The notes under the pieces are model-generated. The model made no database searches. It was not told the origin of the DNA and was given only the letters and a program-made list of their open reading frames with translations. 27,038 nt of DNA from a virus. Shown in pieces: positions 2,135-18,190 of this stretch; within the stretch, counting starts at the first letter, position 1; every line of letters starts with the position of its first letter. The DNA lies in IMG/VR virus record IMGVR_UViG_3300037517_002978, positions 1-27,038 of that record. The stretch is one strand, 5' to 3'. Made by a program: the position numbers and the translations under genes.

Positions 2135-2963
2135 CACAAAACACACGATGCGATCTCAGGTGATCGCGCGGCTGCTGAGTGATGATTTGTTTCGCCGCCG
2201 AACGACTGCGCGGCTCCACAAGAGTACCGACAAAAACGGCCCCGGAGGCTGTTGGCTTTGGACTGGCGGCACTGCCACAGGCGACTACGGGACGATTTCG
2301 CTGACGATCCCTATGCCTGGTGGCGCGCGCTTTCGCCGGGCCACCATCTCTACTCACCGCCTTGCATACGCTTTGGCCAAAGGTGATCCGGGCGATCAGC
2401 ACATTCTGCACTCGTGCGACGTTAGACGATGCGTCAACCCCGATCACCTGACGGCAGGCACGCACGCCGACAACATGCGCGACATGGTGGCCAAGGGGCG
2501 ACACCAACGCGCCACTCCTAAAGGTGACGCGGTTACGACCGCGAAGCACTCAAATGCTGACGCCCTTAAGGTCGCTGAGTTGCACCGTGCTGGCCGCACG
2601 AGTCTGGAAATCGTAGCGGAGACCGGCTTCAAGTATCACTTTGTAGTCAATGTTGCGTCTGGCCGTGCATGGTCAGACATTACAGGGCTCCCACGGCGCG
2701 TCTCAATAAAGCGCTCAGCGAAGCCGCGACCAAGGAGAGCTCCATCTCAGCGTCGGCGCTGGATGATCCTCGGGTGCCTAGCGGAGCATGGCCCGCTGGA
2801 CACTGGGGCTCTCGCTAGCCTCGTAGGAGCGCGCCGAGATGCAACGCTTTCAGCGTGCATCGCTCTTGAGCGAGCTGGGCGACTTCAAAAAGTCAAAACG
2901 GGCGTTGGCTTGGCCACACTTTGGGAAGTGCGGATTGAGGCTGCCAAGAGTGAAGCGGCTTGA
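2127..2963 (+). CDS. HNH endonuclease with HTH and C-terminal winged-helix domain
   Basis: 278 residues, start overlapping the o-spanin stop by 8 bases. An HNH_3-type core sits at about residues 75-120: His77 (STHRLAYAL), the LHSCD strand (His95-Cys97), Cys102, Asn104, His107 and Asn116, with the spacing of free-standing phage HNH nucleases. Residues about 140-188 resemble the HTH often appended to such enzymes (ELHRAGRTSLEIVAETGF). Residues about 205-270 look like a winged helix (ILGCLAEHGPLDTGALASLV ... ALERAGRLQKV). Free-standing HNH genes are often mobile (homing-type) passengers in phage genomes; a packaging-associated nick is the alternative. Last gene of the rightward late operon in this window. 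Confidence 0.75.
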   Translation: MTDTKHTMRSQVIARLLSDDLFRRRTTARLHKSTDKNGPGGCWLWTGGTATGDYGTISLTIPMPGGARFRRATISTHRLAYALAKGDPGDQHILHSCDVRRCVNPDHLTAGTHADNMRDMVAKGRHQRATPKGDAVTTAKHSNADALKVAELHRAGRTSLEIVAETGFKYHFVVNVASGRAWSDITGLPRRVSIKRSAKPRPRRAPSQRRRWMILGCLAEHGPLDTGALASLVGARRDATLSACIALERAGRLQKVKTGVGLATLWEVRIEAAKSEAA

Positions 2964-2973
2964 CCCGCCCTCC

Positions 2974-2991
2974 GCCGTCTAGAGTGACGGC
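2974..2991 (+). terminator. weak candidate terminator between convergent genes
   Basis: GCCGTC (2974-2979) pairs with GACGGC (2986-2991) around a 6-base loop, and a broken T-run follows on the plus strand near 3000-3004. It lies between the end of the HNH gene and the stop of the convergent membrane-protein gene. The short stem and imperfect T-run make it tentative. Confidence 0.3.
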
Positions 2992-4028
2992 TAGGCGGCT
3001 TTCTTCGCGTTCTGTTTGTCGCGTTCGCGGAACCACTTGTAGACCGTCGATTGGTGGCGTCCGACCTTCTCGGCAATCTCAGGCACCTCGAAGCGCCCGC
3101 GCATAGAGAACGCCACTGATTTGGCGTCTTGCCACTGAGCGAGTGGCGCTGGTTCTGGCGTTGGCGCGGGCGGCGCCACTGTCGCCACTGCCGTTTCGGC
3201 GGCCGCCACTGGCGCGCCAAACTGAGAGAGCAGGCCAAGCGTCAGAAGTGCTGCTAACCTATTGAGCCAATGGACTTTCGCGCTAGTGGCGCTCAGAGTG
3301 GCGCTGTCATTGGCGGGAGTGGCGCGTGCCACTGGCGTCGCCATTTCGCGTCCGCGCTCCGCCAAAGCGTAGCCCCAAGGCTCAAGGATCGCCCATGCCA
3401 AGAAGATCGCGAACACAGCGAGCGCCAATGTCCAGTGGTGGTGAGGATCGCGCGCCAGTGGCGGGCTCTCGCTCAATTGGCGTTGCGCCTCTGGCAGGCG
3501 AACGCGTGCCGCAGCGGTCGCGGCGTTGAACAATTCGAGCGCCGCTTGCTGGCGGCTTGTCGGGACGTTGGCGGTGTCAGCCGGGAGCTTTGCCCGCTCG
3601 GCTTCAATGGCTCGAGATAGGGTGGCGATCTCCTCGAGCAGCGCGGCACGCTCATTCTCTCGAGCCTCATAGGCCGCGCGCTGGCCCGATGCGAGCACAG
3701 CTTGCGCGCCCATGTCGGCCGAGACCGCGGCGAACACAACGCAGACCCCATAGAAGGCGATAGCGAGCCCGCGCCAGACGCGGCTTGCGCCGTCGAGCCA
3801 GGCGAAGTTCACAGCCGCACAGGCCGCAATGATCTGGGCTGCGATGCAGCCGATCGCGGCGACGGCGTAGAGAGGCCAGATCGCGTCAAGATCGGCCCAG
3901 TCGCGCGAGGCAAGCGCTTCCAAGGCCCGCGCCTTATCGGCCCAGCCCAAGACGCCGAACAGCGCCAGCGCCACGCTCATAACGACGAGCGCGGACTTTA
4001 GAAGCCAGTTTCGCCGGCGGGCTGTCAC
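2991..4028 (-). CDS. multi-pass membrane protein with coiled coil and C-terminal HTH
   Basis: 345 residues from GTG 4028, overlapping the upstream micro-gene stop as GTGA. Hydrophobic helices lie at about 10-29, 53-75, 85-107, 199-216 and perhaps 255-275. A charged coiled coil spans about 118-150. An Ala/Pro/Thr-rich linker (about 275-297) leads to an HTH at about 303-336, with FEVPEIAEKVGRHQSTVYKW giving helix-turn-helix spacing. This suggests a DNA-binding domain tethered to the membrane, or a membrane sensor of infection. The HTH resembles the homeodomain-like type found in transposase and small-terminase N-termini. The coding DNA carries many AGTGGCG motifs on both strands. I do not recognise the full-length family. 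Confidence 0.65.
   Translation of the reverse strand: MTARRRNWLLKSALVVMSVALALFGVLGWADKARALEALASRDWADLDAIWPLYAVAAIGCIAAQIIAACAAVNFAWLDGASRVWRGLAIAFYGVCVVFAAVSADMGAQAVLASGQRAAYEARENERAALLEEIATLSRAIEAERAKLPADTANVPTSRQQAALELFNAATAAARVRLPEAQRQLSESPPLARDPHHHWTLALAVFAIFLAWAILEPWGYALAERGREMATPVARATPANDSATLSATSAKVHWLNRLAALLTLGLLSQFGAPVAAAETAVATVAPPAPTPEPAPLAQWQDAKSVAFSMRGRFEVPEIAEKVGRHQSTVYKWFRERDKQNAKKAA
3111..3463. repeat. cluster of AGTGGCG/CGCCACT motifs
   Basis: Nine exact copies in 353 bases: CGCCACT at 3111, 3174, 3183, 3204 and AGTGGCG at 3142, 3285, 3297, 3318, 3457, plus one-base-off copies at 3131 and 3328. They occur in both orientations and in different codon phases of the overlapping gene, so they are not simply a protein repeat. 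Confidence 0.6.
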
Positions 4029-4947: not shown

Positions 4948-5010
4948 GCCCTTGCTAAGGGAGCATACCTTAACCGGGTATCCAGGGTTCGAATCCCTGC
5001 GTCTCCGCCA
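4948..5010 (+). other. attP core: 3' part of tRNA-Ser(GCT)
   Basis: The segment reads as the 3' half of a class II tRNA. It contains an anticodon stem-loop CCCTTGCTAAGGG with anticodon GCT, a long variable arm (ATACC ... GGGTAT), a T arm (CAGGG TTCGAAT CCCTG), the acceptor strand CGTCTCC and GCCA. The matching 5' strand (GGAGACG) and D arm are absent upstream, so this is not a functional tRNA gene. It is the copy of the tRNA 3' end that a phage carries to restore the gene on integration. The integrase gene ends about 150 bases to the right; lysis-side phage genes lie to the left. Confidence 0.8.
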
Positions 5011-5065
5011 GAAAGCTGAATAAAGACAAGGCGTTGAGCGGCATCGCAGGCGCGCAAAAAGGCGC

Positions 5066-5161: not shown

Positions 5162-6397
5162 TCATGCTACGTCCGATTTTTCGGGCGCGGGGCCGGGGAG
5201 GGAGAGCGGGCGCGCGTTGAGGCCGGGGCGCATCTCCCAGCCGTAGGACAGAACCTCATCGGCCAAGTCGGCCGAGCCAACGTGCGTGTAGCGCATCGCC
5301 ATTGCGGGCTTTGCCCAGCCGCCTTGATCCATGAGCCATGCGAGATCGCGCGTGACTGCGTAAGTCCACGTCGCCCAAGTGTGGCGGAAGACGTGAGGGT
5401 GAATCCACGCCACGCGCTCGCGCTCTGCAATCGCTTCGTAGATCGCCCACACTTGCTTGCGTGCTTCGTTGCGCGCGTCGTGATCAAACTTCGCGCTGCC
5501 GGCGCGATGCACTAGCTCAGCGATGCGCTCACTCTCGTCGTTGTTTGCGCGCTCGCGCACGGCGCGCACGGTGATGCGATCGAGCGCCTTCTGCACGGCG
5601 CCAACTGTCCAGCGCTCACCGCGACCGTTGAGGTAAACGGGGCCTAGTCCGTCCGCTGGCCTTTGCGGCAAGAGTCCACGCACGCGCGTTTGCACATCAA
5701 TGCCGCGCGCGCGTCCTGCTTTCGTGTCGCCTTCCCAAAGCGTGAAGCGATGATTGGCCGGAGAGACTTGCGGCCAATCAAGTTTGATAAGCTCGCCTGC
5801 GCGCGCGCCTGTGCCGACATAGCCGGTGATGATTGCTTTCTCCGGCCCTGCGTTATCGAGCCACCACTGAATCTCTTTCGGTGTGCGCCAGTCAACGCGG
5901 CCGAGCGGAGTAGGGGGCCTGCGAATGCGGCCCTTCGTAAAGCCCCACGATGTCTGATCGGCGGCGTATTGAAGAACGGCGGACACCGGCGTGTAGAGCT
6001 GGCGATTTCTAGTCGCGTCTTTGGCGTTGGGATAAATTGCAGCGGCGAGGTCATCGATCACGCTCTGATCAATCTCGGTGAGCAGCATTTGTCCGAAGAT
6101 GCGCTTCGCACCATCGACCTTGATTTCCGCCGCGTTGATCTTCGCTAGAAAGGTTTTCTCTCCGCCAGCCTTCACATAGCCAATCATCGCCTCAGCGAAG
6201 CTGCGAGGCCGCGGCTTGTTTAGGACTACCTCTTCGTAGATGTCCCGCTTGCGCCGTTCGAGGATGCCTTCCGCGTCTCGCTCATTACGAGTTCCTGCGC
6301 TCTCATCCAAGTTTCTTCCAAGGTAGGTGCCGCGGATTTGCCAGATCCCCGAACGGGGGTGTTTGTAGAGGCGGAGGCGGAGCTTTTCTTGGGACAT
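5162..6397 (-). CDS. int: tyrosine-type site-specific integrase
   Basis: 411 residues. The N-terminal part (1-65) resembles an arm-binding domain, followed by a SAM-like core-binding helix bundle (about 65-160, starting FAEAMIGYV). The catalytic domain (about 170-390) shows Arg199 in GARAGEL, Lys226 in TKAGRARG, His335-x-x-Arg338 in HVFRH, the GGW motif at 359-361 and the nucleophile Tyr370 in MRYTHV. All expected catalytic residues are present, so it should be active for integration at attP. It is the last gene of the leftward early operon and ends about 150 bases from the tRNA-Ser fragment. Its 5' end overlaps the Xis-like gene by 172 bases in another frame. Confidence 0.93.
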   Translation of the reverse strand: MSQEKLRLRLYKHPRSGIWQIRGTYLGRNLDESAGTRNERDAEGILERRKRDIYEEVVLNKPRPRSFAEAMIGYVKAGGEKTFLAKINAAEIKVDGAKRIFGQMLLTEIDQSVIDDLAAAIYPNAKDATRNRQLYTPVSAVLQYAADQTSWGFTKGRIRRPPTPLGRVDWRTPKEIQWWLDNAGPEKAIITGYVGTGARAGELIKLDWPQVSPANHRFTLWEGDTKAGRARGIDVQTRVRGLLPQRPADGLGPVYLNGRGERWTVGAVQKALDRITVRAVRERANNDESERIAELVHRAGSAKFDHDARNEARKQVWAIYEAIAERERVAWIHPHVFRHTWATWTYAVTRDLAWLMDQGGWAKPAMAMRYTHVGSADLADEVLSYGWEMRPGLNARPLSLPGPAPEKSDVA

Positions 6398-6594
6398 TTG
6401 CGCTTCACTGGCTTGGCTGCGAGGGCTTCTTCAATCCGTTCAAATTGGATGCGGCTGATCGTTCGACGCCTGATCTTTCGGCCAGGCATGACGTTGCACA
6501 AGCCTTCGCGCTCATCGAGGAAAGCGCGGAACGCACGCAAGCTCTGATGCAAGCGCAGCGCCGCCTCCTTGTCGGTGATGGGCCAATCACTCAC
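6226..6594 (-). CDS. putative excisionase-like HTH protein overlapping int
   Basis: 122 residues from GTG 6594, overlapping the upstream stop as GTGA. Residues 1-60 look like a MerR/Xis-type HTH (ITDKEAALRLHQSLRAFRAF, then MPGRKIRRRTISRIQFERIEEAL). The remaining half is low-complexity, Ser/Thr/Ala-rich and is read from the start of the integrase gene in another frame. A small DNA-binding protein immediately before int normally controls directionality of recombination. The long out-of-frame overlap (172 bases) is unusual; either the C-terminal tail is real or the integrase starts later than 6397. Confidence 0.55.
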   Translation of the reverse strand: MSDWPITDKEAALRLHQSLRAFRAFLDEREGLCNVMPGRKIRRRTISRIQFERIEEALAAKPVKRKCPKKSSASASTNTPVRGSGKSAAPTLEETWMRAQELVMSETRKASSNGASGTSTKR

Positions 6595-15316: not shown

Positions 15317-15535
15317 GTGCGAAGCACAACCTATATACACCCCGACGCGGCGACGCACAAGATAGCGGTCAAGCCCGACGCCACCGCTAATTACAGTCGA
15401 TCTGTGCAACCCCGCCTCAGCGACCCCGCGTCCCATGCTGAGGAAATGTCTCAACTCCAATCACAAGCCCAAGCCGCGTTCCAAACAGGGGAGCACGGTG
15501 GGGGGATGCAATGTGAAATCGGGGCGCGCTCATGA
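15317..15535 (+). CDS. small protein ahead of the replication initiator, unknown
   Basis: 72 residues from GTG 15317, preceded by GAGGAAGAA. Polar, His/Ala/Ser-rich, with no obvious domain (MRSTTYIHPDAATHKIAV). Its stop overlaps the initiator start as ATGA, which supports it as a translated leader gene. Function unknown. Confidence 0.5.
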   Translation: MRSTTYIHPDAATHKIAVKPDATANYSRSVQPRLSDPASHAEEMSQLQSQAQAAFQTGEHGGGMQCEIGARS

Positions 15536-16386
15536 GCTGCGCCGTTCTCCTCCACTTCGCTGACGACACCCGTATCACCAGCACTCAGTTCCGCGTGCTC
15601 GGGCTCATCTTGAAGGGCTACTCAAAGCGCGCCGACATGGCCGCGAAGGTCAACAAGACCGTCGTGACTGTCGCCCGGGCGATCGACGCTCTGGTCAAGC
15701 TGGGCATTGTTGAGCGGGAAACCGTCAAGGGAAAGCCGAGCAAGCTCCGTATCTCGACCCGTATCATGGACGCCGTGCGCGTGCTCGAAGCGGACGCCGC
15801 GACCCGTATCACTGATGCGACTAGTAACACTGGTGATACGACTACCCGTATCATTAATGATACGACCCAAATAACCCGTATCACCAATGATCCGACCACC
15901 CGTATCGCTGGTGATCCGACTGCGCCAAATGATACGGGTCAGTCTGTGGATAACCCGCCTCGCGGGGATGTAAGCACGGGCGCGCGCGCGCAAACACAAC
16001 CTTCTAATACTACAATACCTAGATCTGATCTGATCGTATCGAAGGCGATGATCGATGCGCTGATCGCCCGAGCTGGCGACGGCTGCAACCCGACCCACGG
16101 CGACGTTCACAGCGGCGCAGAGCTGACACGGCTCTTGCGCGGCGGTTGCACCTGGGAGGACATCGAGTTCGCCACAGACAGGTTAGCGGCTTCGTTCCGT
16201 CGGCGCGGCCAGCGCTTCGGCACATGGACGCTGCTCGAAGAGCACGCGGTCAAAATCCGCGACCGCCGCTTGGCTGGATTGCCGGCGCCCACAACGCCGT
16301 CACCGACCGCATCTTGGGACTCGCGACCGCGCCGCAACGGCCCATACGGCGCCAACGGCATCGCGCCGATGGTGGGCGTAGGCTGA
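15532..16386 (+). CDS. phage replication initiator (O-like) with internal origin
   Basis: 284 residues. Residues about 15-75 form a winged helix (TSTQFRVLGLILKGYSKRAD, VNKTVVTVARAIDALVKLGI, VERETVKGKPSKLRI). Residues about 75-140 are a Thr/Asp-rich linker with repeated TRI-x-x-D units, encoded by DNA iterons. A conserved-looking C-terminal domain spans about 165-250 (DALIARAGDGCNPTHGD, WEDIEFATDRLAASFRRRGQ), then a Pro-rich end. An initiator whose gene contains the iterons it would bind, followed by primase and helicase genes, matches the lambda O arrangement by design, not by sequence identity. Confidence 0.65.
   Translation: MSCAVLLHFADDTRITSTQFRVLGLILKGYSKRADMAAKVNKTVVTVARAIDALVKLGIVERETVKGKPSKLRISTRIMDAVRVLEADAATRITDATSNTGDTTTRIINDTTQITRITNDPTTRIAGDPTAPNDTGQSVDNPPRGDVSTGARAQTQPSNTTIPRSDLIVSKAMIDALIARAGDGCNPTHGDVHSGAELTRLLRGGCTWEDIEFATDRLAASFRRRGQRFGTWTLLEEHAVKIRDRRLAGLPAPTTPSPTASWDSRPRRNGPYGANGIAPMVGVG
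15757..16041 (+). other. candidate replication origin: iterons, DnaA box, AT-rich stretch
   Basis: ACCCGTATCA occurs at 15757, 15802, 15844 and 15874, as ACCCGTATCG at 15898, and inverted at 15930-15939; an outlying copy is at 15568. Several copies are followed by TGAT(A/C/G)CGAC, making imperfect dyads, with one perfect 16-base palindrome GTATCATTAATGATAC at 15848-15863. A perfect consensus DnaA box (TGTGGATAA, reverse of TTATCCACA) is at 15945-15953. The stretch 15994-16041 is about 62% A+T by my count, in very GC-rich surroundings, and could be the unwinding element. Confidence 0.65.
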
Positions 16387-16392
16387 TGCGCG

Positions 16393-16740
16393 ATGAGCAA
16401 ACTCTCCGACTTCGGCATCAAGCCGCGCGGCCCGGGCAAGAGCTGGAAACAGACCTGTCCGCGCTGCAGCCATCTTCGCAAGAAGAAAACCGATCACTGC
16501 CTCAGCGTGACGACTGGACCGGCGCAATCTTCGTCGGGCTGGATCGATCCTGGGGTTTCGATTTTCCTTTGCCACAACTGCGGCTGGAAGGATCGCGCTG
16601 ATGAACGCGACCCTGAAGGCGGCGACACCGCCAAGCGGCCTCAGCGCTACCGCGCGAGCGTTCCTAGAAGCCCGTGGCTTGGACACGGAACTGTGCGAAC
16701 GTCTGGGGCTAACAAGCGGCCCAGATCGCGGTGGTCGTGA
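16393..16740 (+). CDS. primase zinc-finger protein, split from the TOPRIM-helicase
   Basis: 115 residues. Residues 18-65 form a primase-type zinc domain: Cys22 and Cys25 (CPRC), Cys36 in DHCLSV, Cys60 and Cys63 (CHNC). In T7-like primase-helicases this domain is the N-terminus of one protein. Here the frame changes: the TOPRIM-helicase starts at 16601 in another frame, while this frame runs on to 16740. The last 46 residues are a low-complexity read of the helicase gene start. A sequencing indel, a natural split, or a programmed frameshift could explain this; no obvious slippery heptamer is seen. Confidence 0.6.
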   Translation: MSKLSDFGIKPRGPGKSWKQTCPRCSHLRKKKTDHCLSVTTGPAQSSSGWIDPGVSIFLCHNCGWKDRADERDPEGGDTAKRPQRYRASVPRSPWLGHGTVRTSGANKRPRSRWS

Positions 16741-18190
16741 GTGGCTAGCGATCCCCTATGAGCGCGCCGGCGCCCGGGTAAACCGCAAGTTCCGCGCAAT
16801 CGATGCCAAGGACTTCCGCCAAGACAAAGGCGGCGAACAAGTCTTCTGGCGTCACGACTGCATCGTTGATGAAGGCTTGGCCGATCAACCGCTCATCATC
16901 ACCGAAGGCGAGTTCGACGCGATCGCCGCGATCCAAGCTGGCTACTGGCGCACTCTCTCGATCCCGGGCGGCGGCAACGCGCAAGCGCAAGCGGAGGCGC
17001 GCACGTCAGGCAAGTACGCCTGCATCGCCGCGGCGCAACCCGGGCTGGATAAGATCAAGCACGTCATCATCGCTACCGATGGCGACGGGGTAGGGGCGGC
17101 GACGCTCACGGACCTAACGAGCCTGCTAGGGCCGGCGCGCTGCCAGTTCGTCAGCTATCCGCCCGGGTGCAAGGATCTGAACGATGTCCTGCTGAAGCAC
17201 GGCGCCGAAGGCGTGCGCGCGTGCATTGATGGCGCAAAGTGGGTGCGCGTCGCCGGCGTCCATAAGCTTTTCGATCTGCCGCCATTGCCGCCGCTCGAAA
17301 CCTGGCGCTCGCACATCCACAAGCCGATCGATGATCTCTTGCCGATTTGCCCGGGGCATCTCTCGGTTTGGACGGGCATCCCCGGGCACGGCAAGTCATC
17401 GCTGCTGAACGCGATCGTGTGGTCAATCTCCGACCGCGACGGGACGCGCATCGCTCACGGCACATTCGAGGCCTCGCCTCAGCGCGAGTACTTGGAGGAT
17501 TGCACCGGCTTTCATCTAGGCAAGCCGGCAAGCGACGCCACCGATCAAGAGCGCGAGATGGCCCGCCAGTGGGTGCAAGAGCGCATCACCTTCATCGTCT
17601 CGGACGGCTATGTCGGCCCGGGCAATGAAGAGTTCTTCGATGCTGACCTTGACTGGTTCTTCGAGGGCGCGCGCACGGCCGTTGTTCGGGACGGATGCCG
17701 CATCGTGATCTTGGACCCGTGGTCTCAGATCGAGCACGCCCGCACCAATGCCGAGCCAGAGACGACCTACATCCAGCGCAGCATCCGCCGCGCCAAGTCG
17801 TTCGCGCGCACGTTCGATGTCCACGTTGCGATTGTCGCGCACCCCAGCAAGCAGCGCCGGATGGAAGATGGCTCTTACGCCATGCCGGAAGGCTACGAGA
17901 TCAGCGGCTCGGCGCACTGGTTCAACGGCGTTGATCTTGGCGTCACGGTCCACCGCGCGCCGCCGCTCATCCTTGATGATGACAGCGGAAACTGGATGCC
18001 TGATCCAAAGTCCACGCGCGTCCTGATCCGGGCTTGGAAGAAAAAGAACCACCGCATCATGGGCAAGCCCGGCGACGCTTACGCATCGTTCGACTCCAAC
18101 ACCGGCCGCTACTCCTCAGCCGAGCACTGGGAAGAGCGCACCCAACCAAAACGCTACGCAAAACCACCGGAGAATCGCCGTGACGATTGA
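16601..18190 (+). CDS. TOPRIM primase-helicase (T7 gp4-like, without zinc domain)
   Basis: 529 residues from ATG 16601, preceded by GGAAGG with 9-base spacing. The TOPRIM domain (about 85-200) shows ITEGEFDA (Glu102, Glu104, Asp106) and ATDGDG (Asp160, Asp162), the metal-binding signature. The helicase domain (about 235-460) shows Walker A GIPGHGKSS (259-267), Walker B-like RIVILDPWSQIE (367-378) and a motif with His/Ser, IVAHPSK (411-417), as in DnaB-type ring helicases. It would unwind the fork and synthesise primers, recruited by the initiator just upstream. The C-terminus is basic. The next gene overlaps by 11 bases. Confidence 0.85.
   Translation: MNATLKAATPPSGLSATARAFLEARGLDTELCERLGLTSGPDRGGREWLAIPYERAGARVNRKFRAIDAKDFRQDKGGEQVFWRHDCIVDEGLADQPLIITEGEFDAIAAIQAGYWRTLSIPGGGNAQAQAEARTSGKYACIAAAQPGLDKIKHVIIATDGDGVGAATLTDLTSLLGPARCQFVSYPPGCKDLNDVLLKHGAEGVRACIDGAKWVRVAGVHKLFDLPPLPPLETWRSHIHKPIDDLLPICPGHLSVWTGIPGHGKSSLLNAIVWSISDRDGTRIAHGTFEASPQREYLEDCTGFHLGKPASDATDQEREMARQWVQERITFIVSDGYVGPGNEEFFDADLDWFFEGARTAVVRDGCRIVILDPWSQIEHARTNAEPETTYIQRSIRRAKSFARTFDVHVAIVAHPSKQRRMEDGSYAMPEGYEISGSAHWFNGVDLGVTVHRAPPLILDDDSGNWMPDPKSTRVLIRAWKKKNHRIMGKPGDAYASFDSNTGRYSSAEHWEERTQPKRYAKPPENRRDD

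Follow-up and report, generated by a model that had tools for sequence, protein, structure and literature searches.

The stretch 15757-16039 of the window is very probably the replication origin of a phage and appears to lie inside the phage's own initiator gene (15532-16386). An intragenic origin is well supported because the gene carries a repeat array beyond what chance or coding would yield, an AT maximum follows the array, the nearest related module found carries a variant of the repeat and arrays recur throughout the family. The initial annotation had proposed an origin-like array of iterons with an AT-rich stretch in a replication-initiator gene, and sequence comparison supported this proposal.

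The window, i.e., the whole stretch of DNA that was analyzed, comprises 27,038 bases of IMG/VR virus record IMGVR_UViG_3300037517_002978. The same phage was found on two further IMG/VR contigs, and one base differs over the stretches compared. The gene content is that of a temperate tailed phage, because an integrase gene lies beside a match to tRNA-Ser and because a RecT-like gene, repressor-like genes and a terminase are present in the window. The integrase is of the tyrosine type, matches phrog_1 and is encoded at 5162-6397 on the minus strand. Adjoining it, 61 bp (4955-5015) match the 3' part of tRNA-Ser genes; this stretch was matched in 99 of 142 genomes of the alphaproteobacterial class, the four loci checked were tRNA-Ser, and the stretch looks like a candidate phage attachment site. 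GC skew across the window had no obvious turning point at the proposed origin. The features of the replication region are the following.

15532-16386, plus strand: candidate replication initiator gene, 284 aa, from weak profile matches and position
15568-15577, plus strand: iteron half-site ACCCGTATCA, exact; isolated copy close to the gene start
15757-15766, plus strand: iteron half-site ACCCGTATCA, exact
15802-15819, plus strand: ACCCGTATCA (exact copy at 15802), then inverted TGATGCG
15823-15840: imperfect dyad AGTAACA-CTGG-TGATACG, 2 mismatches
15844-15864: ACC and the perfect dyad CGTATCA-TTAA-TGATACG (dyad at 15847-15864; exact plus-strand copy at 15844)
15874-15894: ACC and the dyad CGTATCA-CCAA-TGATCCG (dyad at 15877-15894, 1 mismatch; exact plus-strand copy at 15874)
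15898-15918: ACC and the dyad CGTATCG-CTGG-TGATCCG (dyad at 15901-15918, 2 mismatches; last base of the plus-strand copy is G)
15930-15939, minus strand: inverted iteron half-site (ACCCGTATCA on the minus strand), exact; frame differs from that of the plus-strand copies
15945-15953, minus strand: DnaA box TTATCCACA, matching the consensus; a function for it is unsupported
15992-16039: putative DNA unwinding element, the 48 bases with the highest AT content in the window
16393-16740, plus strand: zinc-finger ORF (CPRC...CHNC), candidate zinc-binding part of a primase, from motif and position
16601-18190, plus strand: Toprim primase-helicase, 529 aa (phrog_239, E 1.7e-63; Toprim_2 and AAA_25 above cut-off)

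The repeat ACCCGTATC was present in seven copies in the initiator gene. When one mismatch was allowed, ACCCGTATCA had eight matches in 27 kb, seven of them inside the gene, and shuffled windows gave a mean of 0.50 and a maximum of 3. Exact copies of CGTATCA numbered 12 in the window and eight in the gene (shuffles: mean 1.2, maximum 4). Inverted half-sites of the type TGATNCG were located at 15813, 15834, 15858, 15888, 15912, and 15930, and CGTATCA and its inverse pair as 18-bp dyads with a gap of 4. The initial annotation had placed ACCCGTATCA units at 15757, 15802, 15844, 15874, and 15898 and, inverted, at 15930; these coordinates were correct and the listed copies real, but the copy at 15568 had been overlooked. 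The interleaved dyads that it described were recovered as well, with the gap of 4 and with a perfect example at 15847-15864. Single-strand folding of 15740-16045 gave a z of -3.4, which is expected from inverted repeats and was left unused as evidence.

All six plus-strand copies lie in one reading frame, where they encode Thr-Arg-Ile, and are separated by multiples of three; therefore, a repeat at the level of the protein had to be tested. The repeats could be what remains of a tandem duplication, or could reflect repetition of the protein in a disordered linker, and be devoid of a function as DNA. The shared frame agrees with such an explanation, as does a looser statistic for any 9-mer, which reached seven in one of 600 recodings with the phage codon table (0 of 600 with the gene's own table). 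The specific repeat is harder to obtain from coding. With the protein held fixed, the seven observed copies of ACCCGTATC compare with a maximum of two among 5000 recodings with the phage codon table and of five among 5000 recodings with the gene's own table, and when the gene's own codons were permuted 2000 times, with low-complexity and overlapping copies excluded, no 9-mer exceeded a maximum of four. The codons of the inverted units are GAT-NCG; the amino acid that follows Asp is Ala, Thr, Thr, Pro, Pro, and Thr in turn, yet the silent third bases are constant. CGT encodes Arg in all six plus-strand copies but makes up only 19 of the 228 Arg codons of nine further genes in the window. One copy is near the gene start, another is inverted in a different frame, and the successive spacings within the array are unequal (45, 42, 30, and 24). 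Half-sites of the nearest related module occupy two frames, and unrelated motif families recur at the same place in other phages. Leftover duplication or a protein repeat is thus highly improbable, and the simplest reading is that the array is held at the DNA level. That the linker is repetitive because the DNA is, as had been suggested from the sequence, held up, since the array exceeds the demands of the protein under synonymous recoding.

The stretch 15992-16039 is 66.7% AT and ranks first among all 48-mers of the window. None of 5000 synonymous permutations matched its AT content at this position, and five of 1500 reached an equal maximum anywhere in the gene. The 48-base AT-rich stretch of the initial annotation is real and is the maximum of the window, but it does not abut the DnaA box, since the peak is at 15992-16039. 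Five GATC sites fall within 44 bp (16022-16065), overlapping the end of the AT-rich stretch and extending past it. They form the densest such cluster of the window, which was reached by five of 3000 permutations; an excess of GATC was absent in related initiator ORFs (23 seen vs. 19.7 expected).

The product of the initiator gene, P0001, has a winged-helix-like region (approximately residues 15-63), a repetitive linker (approximately 75-135) and a C-terminal region (approximately 174-270). Its gene is directly upstream of the primase-helicase module, a place that suits an initiator. P0001 had weak matches to replication initiation proteins in PHROG (E 0.0011-0.0018) and matched the MarR family in Pfam (PF01047, E 0.0064) below Pfam's cut-off; the lambda O family gave no Pfam match at E ≤ 0.05. 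No homologue was detected by tblastn against phages, and pattern scans with P0001 recovered nothing from genome contigs and only the same phage from viral contigs. Searches of genomes gave weak matches in one of 385 and three of 299; L198 alone was accepted as a convincing relative, and L199 and L200 were set aside. A structure prediction (mean pLDDT 41, pTM 0.23) was too poor to use.

The array could also be an autoregulatory operator of the winged-helix protein, or a locus controlling replication by handcuffing or incompatibility, rather than a start site. Members of the MarR family bind palindromes of about the size of these dyads, and both the weak match of P0001 to that family and one promoter-like match in the array, on the minus strand (shuffles: mean 0.3), agree with such a role. 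However, the array lies 225-400 bp inside the gene, away from its start, and is followed by the AT maximum of the window, and relatives repeat this order of array and then AT, in mid-gene and beside a primase-helicase. An operator or control locus is therefore decidedly unlikely, and an origin is the preferred reading of the array.

Twenty-four stretches of viral contigs contained three copies of ACCCGTATC, and two of these were the same phage (L006 and L020). The remainder, judged by their GC content and by the ORFs over the densest cluster, were mostly collagen-like or simple-repeat genes or were without a candidate initiator ORF; none resembled an initiator gene, and they were taken as chance. 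One viral contig (L010; 67 kb, 37% GC, 13.5 kb examined) had four copies of ACCCGTATC at a 22-bp spacing (6330-6404), overlapped only by a 55-aa ORF; these copies are iteron-like and apparently unrelated.

The nearest module among the loci listed was L036, whose primase-helicase is 54% identical to that of the window. Its initiator ORF (2740-3750) contains ACCCGTAAC, a one-base variant of the repeat, at 3157 and 3181, and further copies of CGTAAC or its inverse at 3214, 3237, 3291, 3301, and 3313. The dyads formed by these sites include a perfect one, CGTAAC-TCAG-GTTACG, and two with one mismatch and 6-base gaps, the same spacing as that between the six-base cores in the window. Seven of the 11 exact copies of the CGTAAC half-site in 9.56 kb fall in the initiator ORF, where the half-sites occupy two frames and two have the ACC prefix, and the AT maximum of the locus (3339-3387) is just past them. 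L036 failed the rule of three exact 9-mers used in the family comparison below, and its sites were found by eye after the motif of the window was known. The motif ACCCGTANC occurred seven times in the initiator ORF of the window, twice in that of L036 and 0.02 times on average (at most once) in the other 124 ORFs. P0001 and the product of the L036 ORF are at best distantly similar (phmmer E 0.33; BLASTP E 2e-4 with 20% identity, a weak match obtained with the composition correction off and the linker included), and P0001 had no match at E ≤ 0.1 when the L036 record was searched by a sensitive method. The sites are therefore better conserved than the proteins.

A second link was provided by the genome locus L198, whose protein has 33% identity to the C-terminal region of P0001 (E 6.8e-6). 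Its N-terminal half differs and resembles proteins annotated as "replication initiation protein" in Staphylococcus phages and as "DnaD-like helicase loader" in a Vibrio phage, and its array consists of AGCGACGCA repeated five times (0 of 1000 permutations). A different binding half and a different repeat, combined with a shared C-terminal region, would be expected under the origin model. Proteins related to that of L198 were detected in five of 299 genomes, its own included. The matching ORFs were read in two of these, L204 and L206, which are tied to P0001 only via the C-terminal region of P0008; neither had a 9-mer three times, which speaks against a universal rule.

Relatives of the whole module were found via an alignment of the primase-helicase (16601-18190) and four related phage proteins. 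Viral and genomic contigs each contributed their best 80 loci, which gave 160 loci, i.e., 159 relatives, one of them the same phage, and the window. The candidate initiator ORF was defined as the longest plus-strand ORF that encodes 150 aa or more and ends close to the primase, and 126 of the 160 loci had one. A 9-mer occurring at least three times within 400 bp was present in 53 of these 126 ORFs vs. three of 126 primase segments of equal length (best 80 loci per scan). Synonymous permutations equalled the array in at most one of 60 trials for 44 of the 53 ORFs and in two or more for the other nine. Among the 1300-bp stretches upstream, an array was detected in 56 of 142, compared to four of 142 controls (best 80 loci per scan). 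Relatedness was handled by a crude k-mer filter only, which kept 112 of the 126 ORFs; 48 of these non-redundant ORFs had an array, compared to 2.7 expected from synonymous permutation and two in primase segments.

The repeat motifs differ between phages, but their place in the middle of the gene recurs (median position 0.47, quartiles 0.40-0.54). AT content in the 50 bp past the last repeat was 0.10 above background (43 loci) and was 0.573 vs. a synonymous expectation of 0.520 (n = 44, p = 2.6e-7), with z above 1 in 28 of the 44 ORFs and below -1 in two. Lambda O, the positive control, gave three copies spanning 0.39-0.47 of its length (matched by 0 of 300 permutations), and lambda P gave no array (228 of 300 permutations matched). 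An exact 9-mer repeated three times was absent from 73 of the 126 initiator ORFs (best 80 loci per scan); in these ORFs the sites may be degenerate, as in L036, or absent altogether. The initial annotation had held that relatives keeping the protein without the repeats would speak against an origin. The outcome for the most part favored the origin: L036 has a variant of the repeat and arrays were found in 53 of 126 ORFs, but 73 of 126 had no triple and L204 and L206 had no array.

Two other observations concern repeats in these genes. Dyads of the form CGTANC-TAAA-GNTACG occurred in initiator ORFs on Asaia and Bosea contigs (L158 at 3581, L161 at 3395, L166 at 3395, and L192 at 3404). At the variable position, a change on one arm is mirrored on the other (T/A, G/C, C/G), and the dyad looks like a conserved palindromic site. 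In phage vB_RanS_PJN03 (L033), the gene preceding the primase-helicase (3069-3740) encodes a linker with the exact peptide repeat KPTETQKTQAFFE, a candidate intragenic array.

The DnaA box TTATCCACA at 15945-15953 is an exact match to the consensus, is the only exact copy in the window and lies between the array and the AT-rich stretch. Host DnaA bound there could be an essential co-initiator of the proposed origin, as in iteron plasmids. The perfection of the box, its uniqueness in 27 kb and its place favor such a role, and only five of 100 shuffles of the whole window contained at least one exact box; in lambda, DnaA boxes downstream of pO near ori-lambda have been footprinted, according to an excerpt of PMC3985674. 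However, the encoded peptide yields the box readily, in 279 of 5000 synonymous permutations (a 5.6% event). None of the 125 other candidate initiator ORFs, L036 included, had an exact or TTATNCACA box (best 80 loci per scan), and boxes were no commoner in initiator ORFs than in flanking DNA (one in initiator ORFs, none in the primase, one downstream and three upstream, in approximately 95-100 kb each). An essential co-initiator thus seems rather unlikely, and the box is probably unneeded for the proposed origin. The perfect box noted in the initial annotation is exact, but the direct use of host DnaA suggested from it was unsupported (279 of 5000; 0 of 125).

In the proposed origin, the winged-helix-like N-terminus of P0001, probably dimeric, would bind the dyads. 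With several initiators bound, the DNA would be wrapped or strained, and the AT-rich stretch 15992-16039 would melt. The C-terminal part of the initiator may then recruit the Toprim primase-helicase of the phage (16601-18190), aided by the zinc-finger protein (16393-16740). The rest of the replisome, including the polymerase, is probably the host's. DnaA possibly assists; a need for it is unsupported.

The conserved split primase is the most interesting by-product of the analysis. The zinc-finger ORF (16393-16740) matched no Pfam family and overlaps the primase-helicase gene (16601-18190) in a different frame. A regular expression found the zinc finger in 92 of the 160 loci (L036-L194 and the window; best 80 per scan), and relative to the finger the Toprim frame was +1 in 55 loci, the same and open in 37, and -1 in none. 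Counted by eye, there were 52 distinct junctions, of which 36 had an ATG 14-29 nt past the last cysteine codon; in the same range, ten had only GTG or TTG and six had no start (L041, L044, L047, L049, L116, and L120). A separate internal start just past the zinc finger would explain most of the split primases. Programmed frameshifting could join the two parts of the primase at junctions without a nearby start, but it is not called for at most junctions, for which the internal start accounts. The literature searched, from which subscription journals were largely missing, contained no recognised account of a zinc-finger ORF in the +1 frame or of such origins beside Toprim primase-helicases.

The intragenic layout is already known from lambda, and the phage of the window adds one more probable case. 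In lambdoid phages, initiator-bound repeats in the middle of gene O are followed by an AT-rich tract (annotated in NC_001416; described in an excerpt of PMC7466680), and the array is at 0.39-0.47 of O, close to the median of 0.47 in the family of the window. The lambda O precedent put forward in the initial annotation was right as architecture, but the proteins are not recognisably lambda's, and the next genes here are the zinc-finger ORF and the Toprim primase-helicase, not the lambda P loader for host DnaB. The excerpts seen of PMC6316719 and PMC5499656 place oriL of SPP1 within gene 38, which encodes the replisome organizer G38P, and propose the same intragenic layout for ORF20 of 80alpha. 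In SPP1, and by that proposal in 80alpha, direct repeats and an AT-rich unwinding element lie within the initiator gene, and SPP1 also encodes its own helicase; SPP1 differs in pairing a helicase of the DnaB type with a separate loader and in using the host primase, whereas the phage of the window has a Toprim primase-helicase. A staphylococcal link is provided by L198, which shares the C-terminal region of P0001 and has an N-terminal half like that of a Staphylococcus phage initiator; a direct similarity of P0001 itself to these proteins is unsupported.

The primase-helicase resembles T7 gp4 and Twinkle in combining Toprim with a RecA-like helicase, and together with the zinc-finger ORF it has the same three parts. 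It differs from them in that the zinc finger is encoded apart, by an overlapping ORF of a different frame, and in that the enzyme adjoins an initiator gene carrying repeats. T7 is not known to require such an initiator for the start of replication. We suggest, tentatively and with some doubt, that phages with lambda-like intragenic origins may form a large class, with many members from Alphaproteobacteria, in which the DNA-binding domain and its iterons swap as a cassette and the initiator recruits a common Toprim primase-helicase, like Twinkle or T7 gp4, with a separate zinc-finger subunit in the +1 frame.

The analysis assigns an exact candidate origin to a phage that has been seen only in metagenome contigs. 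It also suggests a simple way to search other phages: in the gene that precedes a Toprim primase-helicase, repeats should be sought close to the middle, with a peak of AT content immediately past them. Such repeats would predict the target of each initiator's DNA-binding domain, so that pairs of domain and site may be read in bulk. If the broader proposal is true, an iteron-bound initiator that loads a gp4-type enzyme would be a strategy distinct from those of lambda, which uses host DnaB via P, and of T7, which is primed by transcription, and delivery of a gp4- or Twinkle-type enzyme to an origin would be a less familiar start of theta replication.
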